A DNA stretch of 64,000 nt, taken from the NCBI GenBank assembly GCA_009781005.1, contig WQYX01000006.1, positions 1-64,000 of the forward strand, in the 5' to 3' direction. Under the pieces are notes generated by a model. It was not told the origin of the DNA. It saw only the letters and a program-made list of their open reading frames with translations, and did not search any database. The position numbers and the translations under genes were made by a program. This DNA comes from Polyangiaceae bacterium. GTDB taxonomy: Bacteria > Myxococcota_A > Polyangia > Polyangiales > Polyangiaceae. This document shows, one piece after another, positions 9,788 to 64,000 of the stretch (positions are counted from its first letter, which is position 1; each line of letters begins with the position of its first letter).

Positions 9788-9935
9788 GAGAGCGTGTTCG
9801 ACAGGCGTCGCGAGCGAATTGAGGCTAGGGCGGAGCGCGAGGAGCCCGCGCAAGCGTACGTTGTGGTACGTGCGCAGGCACCGCAGCGCCCAACCGACGA
9901 ATCGATTCGCGCAGCAGGCTGCCCTACACGCTCTG
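9788..9935. repeat. palindromic interspersed element, superfamily A/B (copy R3)
   Basis: gagagcgtgt...tacacgctct ends; shared core gaggctagggcggagcgcgagg...caccgcagcgcccaacgac. Confidence 0.8.
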
Positions 9936-10039: not shown

Positions 10040-11386
10040 ATGTGGCGACGATCGGTGTATAGTGCAGTTTTTTTTGGTCTCGTGAGCTTCGCGTCTCACC
10101 TCGTCAAGGCAGACCCGCAGACGCCCGTGCAGCCGTCGGCAGTTGCGCCCGGGCCCGACGCATCCGTCACCGAGCAGCGGCCGCCAATCTCTTCACCGAA
10201 GGTCACGTTCGAGGAGGCCATTCGCCGCGCCATGGAGCGCAACCCAAACAGCGAGATTGCCATGCAGGAGATCCGCCGATCGACGGCGCTCGCAGAGCAA
10301 GTGCGTGCAAACTGGCTGCCCACGCTCTCGGCAAATGGCGCGTACACACGTCTCGACAGCGATCGCGTTTTCGGCGGCAACGTCATGACGTACCGCGACA
10401 CGCTGACCGGAAACATCACGCTGACCGTGCCAATCATCCAGGCGCACAGCTGGGCGGCATCGGCGCGCGCGAACGAGACCGTGGATCTGGCCAAGCTCTC
10501 CGCCATCGACGCAAAAAAGCAGATTGCGATCACGACGGGCCGCGCCTTTCTGACGGTCATCGCGCAGCGCCGCGTGCTCGAGAGTTCGGTCAACGCGCGC
10601 GACACCGCTCTCGCTCACGAACAGTACGCAAAGTCGCGCCTCGAAGGTGGCATCGGCAACCGTCTCGATGCCGTGCGTGCGGGCCAGGAGCGCGCGTCCA
10701 GCGATGCGCTCGTGCAGACACAAACACTCGCACTCGAGCGGACGCAAGAGGCGCTCGGCGTATTGCTCGGAGAGAGCAGCCCCGTCGACGTCGTCGAGAC
10801 GAATCTGCCCGAGCCACCAACGCTCGCCGCCGCACTCTCCGAGGCCGAGAAATATCGGAGTGACGTCATTGCCCAGCGTCAACGCGTGGAGATTGCACGT
10901 AAAGCGGTGCGTGATGACTACACGGATTACCTGCCGCTCGTGAGCGCCGTTGCACAGCCTTTCTTGCAGACGCCGGCAACACCGACCGTCCCAGGGGCTG
11001 GCTGGCAGGCCCAACTCATCTTGGCTATCCCGCTCTACGATGGCGGTGCACGCTATGGTCTTGCTCACGAGCGCGCGGCGGTGCACGAAGAGGAGAAGGT
11101 CAGGCTCGACGGCATGCTTCGCCAGGCTCGCTCCGACGTTCGCATTTCCTTCGAGGGTGTTCGTCGTGCGGACGCGGCGCTCGTGGAAGCGCGCGAGGCC
11201 TCGAAGCTCGCCGCCGAGGCGCTCTCGCTCGCGCAGGACGCGTACTCTGCCGGCACCACGTCGAACCTCGACGTCATCGACGCCGAGCGTCGATCCCTCG
11301 ACGCCGCGACCGGTGCGGCCGTCGCCGAAGACGCGGCGCGCCAGGCCAGACTCGATCTCCTCTTTGCTTCAGGGCGTTTTCCCTGA
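10040..11386 (+). CDS. TolC family outer membrane efflux protein
   Basis: Signal peptide MWRRSVYSAVFFGLVSFASHLVKA; TolC/OEP repeats (TFEEAIRRAMERNP, ALSEAEKYRSDVIAQRQRVEIARKAVRDDY); start trimmed so repeat R3 is excluded. Confidence 0.88.
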   Translation: MWRRSVYSAVFFGLVSFASHLVKADPQTPVQPSAVAPGPDASVTEQRPPISSPKVTFEEAIRRAMERNPNSEIAMQEIRRSTALAEQVRANWLPTLSANGAYTRLDSDRVFGGNVMTYRDTLTGNITLTVPIIQAHSWAASARANETVDLAKLSAIDAKKQIAITTGRAFLTVIAQRRVLESSVNARDTALAHEQYAKSRLEGGIGNRLDAVRAGQERASSDALVQTQTLALERTQEALGVLLGESSPVDVVETNLPEPPTLAAALSEAEKYRSDVIAQRQRVEIARKAVRDDYTDYLPLVSAVAQPFLQTPATPTVPGAGWQAQLILAIPLYDGGARYGLAHERAAVHEEEKVRLDGMLRQARSDVRISFEGVRRADAALVEAREASKLAAEALSLAQDAYSAGTTSNLDVIDAERRSLDAATGAAVAEDAARQARLDLLFASGRFP

Positions 11387-11530
11387 AACGCGTTTGCTAA
11401 CCTGCTGCGCGCCGCGATGCCTTCGTTGGGTCCTGCGGTGCCCGCGCACGTACAACAACGTACGCTTCCGCGGGCTCCTCGGACCCGCCTTGGCCTCGCG
11501 GCGCTCGCGACGGTTATCAAACGCGTTTCA
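11384..11530. repeat. palindromic interspersed element, superfamily A/B (copy R4)
   Basis: tgaaacgcgtttgctaacc ... ggttatcaaacgcgtttca; overlaps the tolC-like stop codon. Confidence 0.85.
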
Positions 11531-45228: not shown

Positions 45229-45370
45229 GAGGGTGTTTACCAGCCGTTGCGAGCGACGTGAGGCCAAGGCGGGCCCGAGGAGCCCGCGTAAGCGTACTGG
45301 TCGTACGTGCGCAGGCACCGCAGGGCCCAACGAAGGCATCGCGGCGCGCAGCAGGCTGGTAAACACCCTC
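45229..45370. repeat. palindromic interspersed element, superfamily A/B (copy R5)
   Basis: Perfect 17-bp stem gagggtgtttaccagcc / ggctggtaaacaccctc; lies between rpmI and rplT. Confidence 0.9.
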
Positions 45371-56628: not shown

Positions 56629-57230
56629 TGGGTAGGGTCGATCTGGTCGTTCTTTTCGCTGATGCCGACGCGGAGCGATTCGTTACAAAGCTCATCGAAC
56701 GAGGAATCGAACGCAGTTGTCTGCGAAACATGAACCGAAAGTTCGTCCGCGATCCCATGTGTGATTCACATGTTGCCAGCAAGCCAACCGCGGCACTCGC
56801 CCCTTATCTTGGCCAGCCAACGTGCCGCTTTTTAGTAGTGCTCGATCACCATGGTTCTGGGTATGAAGCGCATCCTCGGGAAAGGCTCGAACAAGACATT
56901 GTCGACCACTTGGTGCGCGCAGGCGTCGACGGGAAGCAGGTTGCGGTGATTGCGTTCGAGCCCGAGCTCGAGATCGCGTTGCTCCCCGCATGGGAACGCG
57001 TGGTCGCACTGCTTGCGAAGAAGCGCGACGAGCTTCCTTCGACGACCATCGCCATGGACGCGCAGGATCCAAAATCGAGTTTGGCAGCTGCTCTCAAATA
57101 TTACCGCTTGAAGAGTGGGGCCGCTCTCTTCGCTGATCTGGCAAACGAGTTGTCGCTGGAACGCTTGAAGACGGGGGTGGCGTTGGGGCGGATTTCGCAG
57201 CATTTGGTCGACTGGTTCGGCATGCGATGA
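56628..57230 (+). CDS. partner protein of the AAA ATPase (DUF4276/TOPRIM-like, tentative)
   Basis: VDLVVLFADADAERFVTKLIER ... CRFLVVLDHHGSGYE ... EPELEIALLPA; ATG overlaps the end of the ATPase gene. Confidence 0.65.
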   Translation: MGRVDLVVLFADADAERFVTKLIERGIERSCLRNMNRKFVRDPMCDSHVASKPTAALAPYLGQPTCRFLVVLDHHGSGYEAHPRERLEQDIVDHLVRAGVDGKQVAVIAFEPELEIALLPAWERVVALLAKKRDELPSTTIAMDAQDPKSSLAAALKYYRLKSGAALFADLANELSLERLKTGVALGRISQHLVDWFGMR

Positions 57231-58195
57231 ATCGCCTGGCCGTACGTGTGCGTGTCGTTCGCGCGGCCGTGATCGTGTCGGCGATCTTCGCGCTCGTCGC
57301 CATCTTCGCGGATTTTCTGGCGAGCGATTTGCCCATCATGAGCAAGATCTCCGGCAAGATCTGGCTCTTTCCGAATGTCACCCGCCCGGCTGCACTCACG
57401 AAAATGACCGCGAGCGAGCGAGCGAACGCGACCGAGTGGCAACTTCCCGCGCTCGTTGCGCACGGACCCTTGATTGCCAACGAGGATCCCGCCGCGCGTC
57501 TTCGCGGTCCGTTCGCGCTGCCCGGGCATCCGCTCGGCACCGACCGCGCCGGTCGCGACATCTTCGCGCGATGCGTCCATGGCGCGCGCAACTACCTCGT
57601 CTTCGCGCTCGCTGCGGTCATCGCATCGCTCGTCTTGGGTAGCTTCTTTGGCGGTGTTGCCGGCCTCTTCGGCGGCGTCACGGACGCTTTCGTCAATCGG
57701 GCGATCGAGACGATCTCGGCTTTTCCCGCGCTCGTTCTCATCCTCGGCATTCAAGCCGCGGTTCCGCACGCAACGCTCACGACGCTCTTCTTTGCTATCG
57801 CGCTAACGCGCTGGCCGGAGATCGCGCGACTCGTGCGTGCCGAGGTCATGCGGATTGAGGCGCGCGACTACGTCATGGCCGCGCGCGCGCTTGGAGCTTC
57901 GCCGCTGCGCGTTCTCTGGCGGCACGTTCTGCCGAACATCCGCGGACAGGTCGCGGCGCTCGGCGCCTTCGGAATTCCCGCCGTCGTCCTCGTCGAAGCG
58001 TCGCTCGATTTCTTGCGCATCGGCATTGGCGAAACGACGTCTGCATCGTGGGGCGAGACCATGAGCCAGTTCCGCGGCGTCTCTCACGCTTGGTGGTTGC
58101 TCGCGTTCCCCGGCATTCTTCTTTTCGTCATGGTCGTAGCCATGAACATCGTGGGCGAAGCATTGCGCGCAAGCTCGGATCCACGCGGTCGTTAG
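57227..58195 (+). CDS. DppC/OppC-like ABC transporter permease
   Basis: HPLGTDRAGRDIFARCVHGARNYLVFALAAVIASLVLGSFFGGVAG; EARDYVMAARALGASPLRVLWRHVLPNI. Confidence 0.93.
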   Translation: MNRLAVRVRVVRAAVIVSAIFALVAIFADFLASDLPIMSKISGKIWLFPNVTRPAALTKMTASERANATEWQLPALVAHGPLIANEDPAARLRGPFALPGHPLGTDRAGRDIFARCVHGARNYLVFALAAVIASLVLGSFFGGVAGLFGGVTDAFVNRAIETISAFPALVLILGIQAAVPHATLTTLFFAIALTRWPEIARLVRAEVMRIEARDYVMAARALGASPLRVLWRHVLPNIRGQVAALGAFGIPAVVLVEASLDFLRIGIGETTSASWGETMSQFRGVSHAWWLLAFPGILLFVMVVAMNIVGEALRASSDPRGR

Positions 58196-58197
58196 CC

Positions 58198-58467
58198 AGT
58201 TCCCATTCGGAAACTGCTGCGCGCCGCAAATCGTGGGTTCGGCCTCCCTCAGAGCGTGTAGGGCAGCCGTCGCGAGCGAATCGAGGCTAGGGCGGAGCGC
58301 GAGCACCGGGCGGAACAGGCTTAATGCCTTTGAGCACGGAGCGCAGCGCCCAACCGACGCATCGATTTCGCGCAGCAGGCTGCCCTACACGCTCTCAAAA
58401 TACTCCGAGTATTCCTCGTTCGGCCTCGCTAGCTTTGCGTCGCTCGCGACGTTTCCGAATGGGAACT
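58198..58467. repeat. palindromic interspersed element, superfamily A/B, outer element (R8 outer)
   Basis: Perfect 17-bp stem agttcccattcggaaac / gtttccgaatgggaact, interrupted by R8 inner. Confidence 0.85.
58251..58395. repeat. palindromic interspersed element, superfamily A/B, nested inner element (R8 inner)
   Basis: Perfect 18-bp stem agagcgtgtagggcagcc / ggctgccctacacgctct; close relative of R3. Confidence 0.9.
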
Positions 58468-58523: not shown

Positions 58524-59222
58524 ATGCATATTTTCGGTGGTTCGAAGGGGCGCGATGGAAGTCTCCCGGGGCAGGGCGGCAAAGGCGTGTTGCCTAGCGT
58601 GACGGAACGAGACTTCGAGCAGCAAGTGCTGCTCAGCGAGATCCCCGTGCTCGTGGAATTCATGACCGAGCGATCGCAGTCTTGCCAAGCCATTGCGCCC
58701 GACGTCGAAGCTTTCGCGAAGGAGATGGAGGGCAAGCTCCGCGTCGTGAAGGTGGATATCGAGAAATCACCCATGCTCGCGCGGCAACTGCGCCTGCAAC
58801 AAGTTCCAACGTTCATGCTGTTCGTCGATCAGCGCCTCGGCGACGCACAGGTCGGACCGCTCAACAAGAAGCAGCTCCTTGCGATGGTCGAACCGTTTTT
58901 GCCTCGGCAAGAAGGCGCGCTCAAGGCGATCGAGGTCGACGTGCTCATCAGGCGCGGGGCCGTCGTCGCCGTCGACATGCGCGACGCATCGGCCTACGGA
59001 CGCGCGCACTTGCCGGGCGCGAAGAACATCCCCGAAAACGAAATCGCGTCACGGCTCGCCGAGCTCTTCATGTTTCAGGGCCAGCCGGTGCTCTACGATC
59101 GCTCGGGAGACAAGACCAAGAAGATCGCGGCGGCGATGGCCGAGCAGGGCACGCCCATCGCGTTCCTCGAGGGTGGCATCCTCGCGTGGGAAGCCGAAGG
59201 TCTCCCCATCGAGCGATCGTAG
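58524..59222 (+). CDS. thioredoxin-like plus rhodanese-like fusion protein lacking canonical catalytic cysteines
   Basis: PVLVEFMTERSQSCQAIAPDVEAFAKEMEGKLRVVKVDIEKSPMLARQLRLQQVPTFMLF; VVAVDMRDASAYGRAHLPGAKNIP...PVLYDRSGDKTKKIAAAM...LEGGILAWEAEGLP. Confidence 0.88.
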   Translation: MHIFGGSKGRDGSLPGQGGKGVLPSVTERDFEQQVLLSEIPVLVEFMTERSQSCQAIAPDVEAFAKEMEGKLRVVKVDIEKSPMLARQLRLQQVPTFMLFVDQRLGDAQVGPLNKKQLLAMVEPFLPRQEGALKAIEVDVLIRRGAVVAVDMRDASAYGRAHLPGAKNIPENEIASRLAELFMFQGQPVLYDRSGDKTKKIAAAMAEQGTPIAFLEGGILAWEAEGLPIERS

Positions 59223-63766: not shown

Positions 63767-64000
63767 GAGTGACGTGCGTCATCGAGCGCATGACCGAGGC
63801 CGATCTCGACGAAGTCGTTACGATCGATCTCGACGCGTTTCATCCCGACCGCTTTCAAGTTGACGCGATTTCATCGTTGGCGGCTGCGGTGCGGTCCTCA
63901 AAGCCGAAGCAGGCTGTTCCGGTCCGCTCCTCGCCGGCCGCCTCGAACTCGCGTCAACTTGAAAGCGGTCTAGAAAGTGCGCGCGTGCTCCGAGAGGCGA
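63763..64000 (+). CDS. N-terminal part of a possible RimI-like N-acetyltransferase containing an in-frame palindromic repeat (partial, right edge)
   Basis: GTGA overlap with upstream stop; VRVTCVIERMTEADLDEVVTIDLDAF resembles GNAT/RimI N-termini; open to the window end through the repeat. Confidence 0.5.
   Translation, partial: MRVTCVIERMTEADLDEVVTIDLDAFHPDRFQVDAISSLAAAVRSSKPKQAVPVRSSPAASNSRQLESGLESARVLREA
63847..63970. repeat. palindromic interspersed element, superfamily A/B (copy R10)
   Basis: Perfect 22-bp terminal inverted repeats gaccgctttcaagttgacgcga / tcgcgtcaacttgaaagcggtc. Confidence 0.95.

Follow-up and report, generated by a model that had tools for sequence, protein, structure and literature searches.

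A MITE of the IS5/IS1031 type nested within a second MITE behind an ABC-transporter permease gene

The palindromic composite at positions 58198-58467 of the window (the whole stretch of 64,000 nucleotides that was analysed, contig C6:1-64000 of genome G000, which comprises 4,773,856 bases in 199 contigs) consists of one MITE, of the IS5/IS1031 type, that sits within another. It adds a further case to an arrangement already described, nested MITEs being known and such insertions ordinary in bacterial genomes. Very probably, an element of one family (B) already stood behind the permease gene when an element of another family (A) arrived, the latter having been moved into it by a transposase of the IS5 family (IS1031 type) acting in trans. 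The incoming MITE would have entered near the centre of the resident one at a TCA trinucleotide, with duplication of those three bases. The locus places two insertions in temporal order and, from sequence alone, indicates past mobility of both families in this lineage. The features of the locus, together with related family-A elements of the window, are as follows.

57227..58195, + strand: ABC-transporter permease gene (BPD_transp_1; ORF and Pfam), directly upstream of the composite
58198..58467, no strand: outer palindromic element, interrupted family-B MITE, ~124 bp without the insert, more than 30 uninterrupted copies in the same genome
58198..58214, no strand: left arm of the outer element (family B), 17-bp perfect inverted repeat, arm type shared with 26 to 30 other copies
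58249..58251, no strand: left copy of the target duplication TCA, seen in the sequence; single TCA in uninterrupted B copies
58252..58394, - strand: inner element, family-A MITE of the IS5/IS1031 type, 143 bp, ends GAGCGTGTAGGGCAGCC, orientation opposite to that of the outer element
58395..58397, no strand: right copy of the target duplication TCA, seen in the sequence
58451..58467, no strand: right arm of the outer element, 17-bp perfect inverted repeat
58524..59222, + strand: thioredoxin-rhodanese gene (ORF and Pfam), downstream of the composite
9790..9933, - strand: family-A element (R3), duplication TCA, different centre
45229..45370, - strand: family-A element, ends GAGGGTGTTTACCAGCC, duplication TAA

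The earlier note had described a 17-bp perfect outer stem whose left arm begins 2 nt past the stop codon of a DppC-like gene. The stem is present at 58198-58214 / 58451-58467, the ORF ends at 58195, and the BPD_transp_1 match of its product is consistent with a DppC-like permease. The 18-bp perfect inner stem reported there was also recovered (58251-58268 / 58378-58395), but the inner element itself runs from 58252 to 58394. The A and T at the extremities of the stem are part of the TCA duplication and lie outside the element, since any TNA duplication lengthens the palindrome by one base. The resemblance of the inner copy to R3, placed by the note at 9788, extends to the ends and the subterminal blocks but not to the centre, which reads GTGCCTGCGCACGTAC... 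in R3 and GTGCTCAAAGGC... in the inner element. A simple estimate puts the chance expectation for 64 kb at ~1e-3 perfect pairs of 17-mers no more than 300 bp apart. Given this low expected number, and since both elements belong to large families of the same genome, the palindromes are not a product of chance.

That one element had been inserted into the other, implying past mobility, was the central proposal of the note, and it was borne out at the inner junctions, where a search for target-site duplications had been recommended. The inner element, with its ends written GAGCG...CGCTC, has TCA on either side, and uninterrupted outer copies read ...GGCCTCCC-TCA-AAATACTCC... at the insertion point. 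When the flanks were joined and one TCA was removed, the resulting 124 bp aligned to the outer consensus end to end, without gaps and with 95% identity. The unoccupied TCA site was found in 32 distinct outer copies in all collected sequence, at least one of which possibly comes from a relative. Uninterrupted versions of the outer element, whose complete absence would have counted against an insertion, therefore exist.

A search with the composite yielded ~40 further inner-type copies, mostly 80-98% identical. Genome-wide, the terminal-repeat pattern GAGCGTGTNNNNCAGCC, with at most one mismatch, gave 485 matches compared to 17 for a reversed control, which corresponds to ~240 inner-type elements in 4.77 Mb, or one per 20 kb. 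Perfect 3-bp duplications flank 63 of the 84 catalogued family-A copies (TAA 18, TGA 17, TCA 16, TTA 11, TCC 1), with TNA accounting for 62 of the 63; random re-pairing of left and right flanks produced 16.7 perfect duplications on average and never more than 29 in 5000 trials. These statistics refer to stretches covering approximately one quarter of the genome, plus matched loci. The inner element has the properties of a MITE: it is short (143 bp) and non-coding, with perfect 17-bp ends, its family shows target-site duplications at many independent sites, and its ends match those of an IS of the same genome, represented by IS5-type remnants with GAGCGTGTTCGACAGC ends.

The IS5-type transposase fragments of G000 are located mostly at contig ends, as expected of collapsed repeats. 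The copy at C107:3-518 reached 140 bits against NF033580 (IS5 family; cut-off 110) and also matched DUF4096 and DDE_Tnp_1; it represents an IS5-type DDE transposase, seems internally deleted, and is followed by the inverted repeat GAGCGTGTTCGACAGCA. A second protein, translated by eye from L182 with a possible frameshift, was left out of account. The fragments end in GAGCGTGTTCGACAGC at C107, C62 and C10, in GAGAGTGTTCGACAGC (one change) at C89, and in GAGCGTGTTCTACAGG at C78. An IS5-type transposase frame bounded by GAGGGTGTTCATCAGG ends was found on a 911-bp contig of G024, a genome from another genus. In G000 itself, the assembled copies are either remnants or truncated by contig ends, and none forms a complete autonomous IS with family-A ends. 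Facing A stems ~2 kb apart at C3:64774-66789 were considered as a full IS and rejected, as they proved to be two separate stems with a NAD-synthetase-like ORF between them. Inspection by eye of solitary TTAC-type A ends (L044, L143, L142) revealed no recognisable transposase.

The family-A MITE and its partner IS are alike only in their ~17-bp ends, and a similarity confined to the ends is usual for MITEs (PMC3852290). Members of the IS1031 subgroup of the IS5 family prefer TNA targets and generate a 3-bp repeat (PMC12016507); the same target and duplication were observed here, as scored on the MITE copies. By its target rule and transposase profile, the partner of family A would belong to this subgroup, and we infer that a transposase of the IS1031 type moved the inner copy examined here.

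ISLrh, a member of the IS1031 subgroup, is 857 bp long, with 17-bp repeats and a TNA target (PMC12016507). Family A has in common with this subgroup the TNA target, the 3-bp duplication, a 17-bp repeat starting with GA and an IS5-type transposase, but its partner is known from remnants alone and is a putative member of the subgroup. The ISMma12 MITE of Methanosarcina acetivorans (140 bp, 24 copies, 16-bp repeat, 3-bp duplication, IS5 partner; PMC3852290) is comparable in size, repeat length, 3-bp duplication, presence in many copies and similarity to the partner IS in the ends only. In contrast to it, family A has another host and sequence, ~240 copies, a variable 4-nt block in the repeat and several alternative cores. 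RUP of pneumococcus, Correia of Neisseria and ERIC are, like the families described here, high-copy non-coding mobile palindromes, and RUP reportedly inserts into other mobile elements (PMC2229807, PMC10969869). They differ in having other partners (an IS630 type with a TA target in the case of RUP), and no sequence relation was shown. MITECca01 of Cardinium (~169 copies, ~240 bp, IS982 partner; PMC9769881) often disrupts other mobile elements; it resembles family A in this respect and in its high copy number, and differs from it in its partner and length.

When the outer sequence without the insert was used as a query, more than 30 copies were found at 86-96% identity, most of them aligned end to end over ~124 bp. 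With terminal inverted repeats and more than 30 dispersed copies of ~123 bp, family B would be classified as a MITE by structure and dispersal, its transposition being putative. A 6-bp duplication is perfect in two of 26 copies (TCATGA and TAACTC) and matches at five of six positions in three more, a signal that is weak overall (z ~2.8, with many offsets tried). The outer copy of the window is flanked by TAGCCA and TTTGCC, which agree at two of six positions and give no convincing target duplication. No IS with B-type ends was found in the stretches searched (~1/4 of the genome). At C70:591-895 of G000 (L052, L054), outer-type elements are arranged head to tail with 128-bp spacing, two full and a partial third. 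Near position 137 of locus L156, a collapsed outer-type element consists of two outer arms around 11 bases (GTCGCGCAGCA), apparently as a result of internal deletion between subterminal blocks.

The homologous gene pair of sister genome G009 is ~76% identical and encloses a 578-bp intergenic stretch, in which neither the inner nor the outer element was found. Elsewhere, G009 carries at least 14 inner-type copies and one outer-type copy. The intergenic regions are too different for a clean pre-insertion site of the outer element to be recognised in G009. The comparison of sister strains suggested in the note yielded a locus with neither element.

The terminal repeats of family A differ notably in the four variable bases of GTGT[NNNN]CAGCC (AGGG, TCGA, TCGC, TTAC, TCTA, TTCC and rarer tetramers). 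The tetramer is identical in both arms in 37 of 84 A copies, compared to 13.9 (maximum 27) after shuffling, and in 26 family-B copies the outer arms agree at 15.1 of 16 positions, compared to 12.9 after shuffling; both sets were unfiltered for arm similarity. Movement evidently does not depend on matched arms, as many inner copies are mosaic (AGGG is combined with TCGC in 11). The arms of inverted repeats can be homogenised by template switching during replication (PMC8794818, PMC8604942). The matching may have arisen in this way or through descent from partner ISs with different ends, and the data appear to fit both; TCGA and TCTA ends both exist among the partner ISs.

Matched arms could also be read as a sign that the palindromes are selected structured RNAs or regulatory elements (terminators, RNase III sites), with the covariation reflecting RNA function. 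The arms do covary within copies, and the composite, located directly behind the permease gene, has a very stable fold (-142.5 kcal/mol, z -7.2). However, such a hairpin is expected of any palindrome of this kind and is therefore not evidence of a selected role, while template switching (PMC8794818) or descent from different ISs can produce matched arms with no selection on RNA. Transposition is evident from the duplications and dispersed copies, the element is absent from the sister locus in G009, and an Rfam search of eight loci gave no match. We therefore regard this reading as unlikely. An RNA role and transposition are compatible, as a MITE can gain a role later; at present, we infer, the composite would at most add a long hairpin to the permease transcript at its 3' end. 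A more general caution is that covarying stems in a repeat family alone do not prove a functional RNA.

The two parts of the composite share the subterminal blocks TGCTGCGCG / CGTCGCGAGCG and could look like one design, that is, a single compound element spreading as a unit with the inner stem as an internal part. This is extremely improbable, given that uninterrupted outer and free inner copies are both numerous, that the composite was found once among the collected copies, and that its inner junctions carry a TNA duplication, as do those of free inner copies. The same short blocks, common to both families, together with the exchange of arms and cores elsewhere in the genome, might suggest that recombination or template switching between these palindromic blocks, and not transposition, produced the nesting. 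Yet the junction lies at the exact ends of the A element, with a 3-bp TNA duplication and outside the shared blocks, and the restored outer sequence is gapless; an origin by recombination is thus very improbable. A REP/BIME-type repeat spread by a Y1 transposase (RAYT) would likewise be high-copy, palindromic and mostly short, and the genome contains one Y1_Tnp gene, but 3-bp TNA duplications and terminal inverted repeats shared with an IS5 element leave this interpretation of the inner element with practically no probability. The PF01797 search gave one gene, with neither A nor B arms in its locus.

Beyond the insertion of A into B by transposition, cores and arms of these elements were found in changing combinations, the reverse of the normal situation, in which MITE families are defined by their ends. 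In 30 copies the 89-bp outer core is framed by outer arms, and in two (L058 on C33 and L130 on C11) by GAACGCGTTT..TAACC ('D') arms; the core of L058 shares 99% identity with one that has outer arms. Inner-type arms surround the outer core in one copy in G000 (L143, C23) and in nine copies from other genera, whose cores are 72-79% identical and most of which have TNA duplications; in relatives it was found with at least three additional, unrelated pairs of arms (L168, L170, L172). Inner arms and D arms both frame the R3-like core, the combination with D arms being present at 11386-11528 of the window and in six other copies. These arm-type counts were read from the listed sequences; the automatic labels confuse TTAC-type A arms with D.

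One core appears in at least six unrelated complementary arm pairs, both here and in other genera of the family, the arms switching as matched pairs and the core retaining 72-99% identity (L058, L130, L143, window 11386-11528, L165-L180, L236). Recombination at TGCTGCGCG and CGTCGCGAGCG, the subterminal blocks common to families A and B, would be the simplest explanation for this exchange. It is conceivable, though on balance doubtful, that the persisting unit is the ~89-bp hairpin core, repeatedly re-framed by matched arms of different transposon families. If so, one non-coding core would use several transposases over evolutionary time. The repeat landscape of this genome is a useful case with respect to arm matching in palindromic MITEs and the passage of cores between transposon families.

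Nesting between families is common and occurs in both directions. The reverse arrangement is found at C13:8544 (L133/L039), where an outer-type element lies within an inner-type stem, with TTACCA/TTACTA at its ends, and at L006/L141 an inner-type element lies within a third family (ends TAGACCGCTTTC). In the A elements of L137, L140 and L133, the CCCTAGCC stretch is interrupted by members of a family with CCCGGATCATTCATGACG ends and CTAG on either side, and in those of L124:8794-8956 and L146 the same stretch contains a palindromic element with GGGCCTGTCCCTGAATTC ends that is apparently TA-flanked. Tandem A pairs are split by a single shared TAA at C12:16385-16718 (L131) and C19:37818-38106 (L139). 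A further copy of the CTAG-flanked palindromic family is located at L106:5050-5239. In the window itself, positions 63847-63970 are occupied by a member of a palindromic family with 22-bp arms GACCGCTTTCAAGTTGACGCGA, a copy of which elsewhere (L006/L141) is interrupted by an A element.
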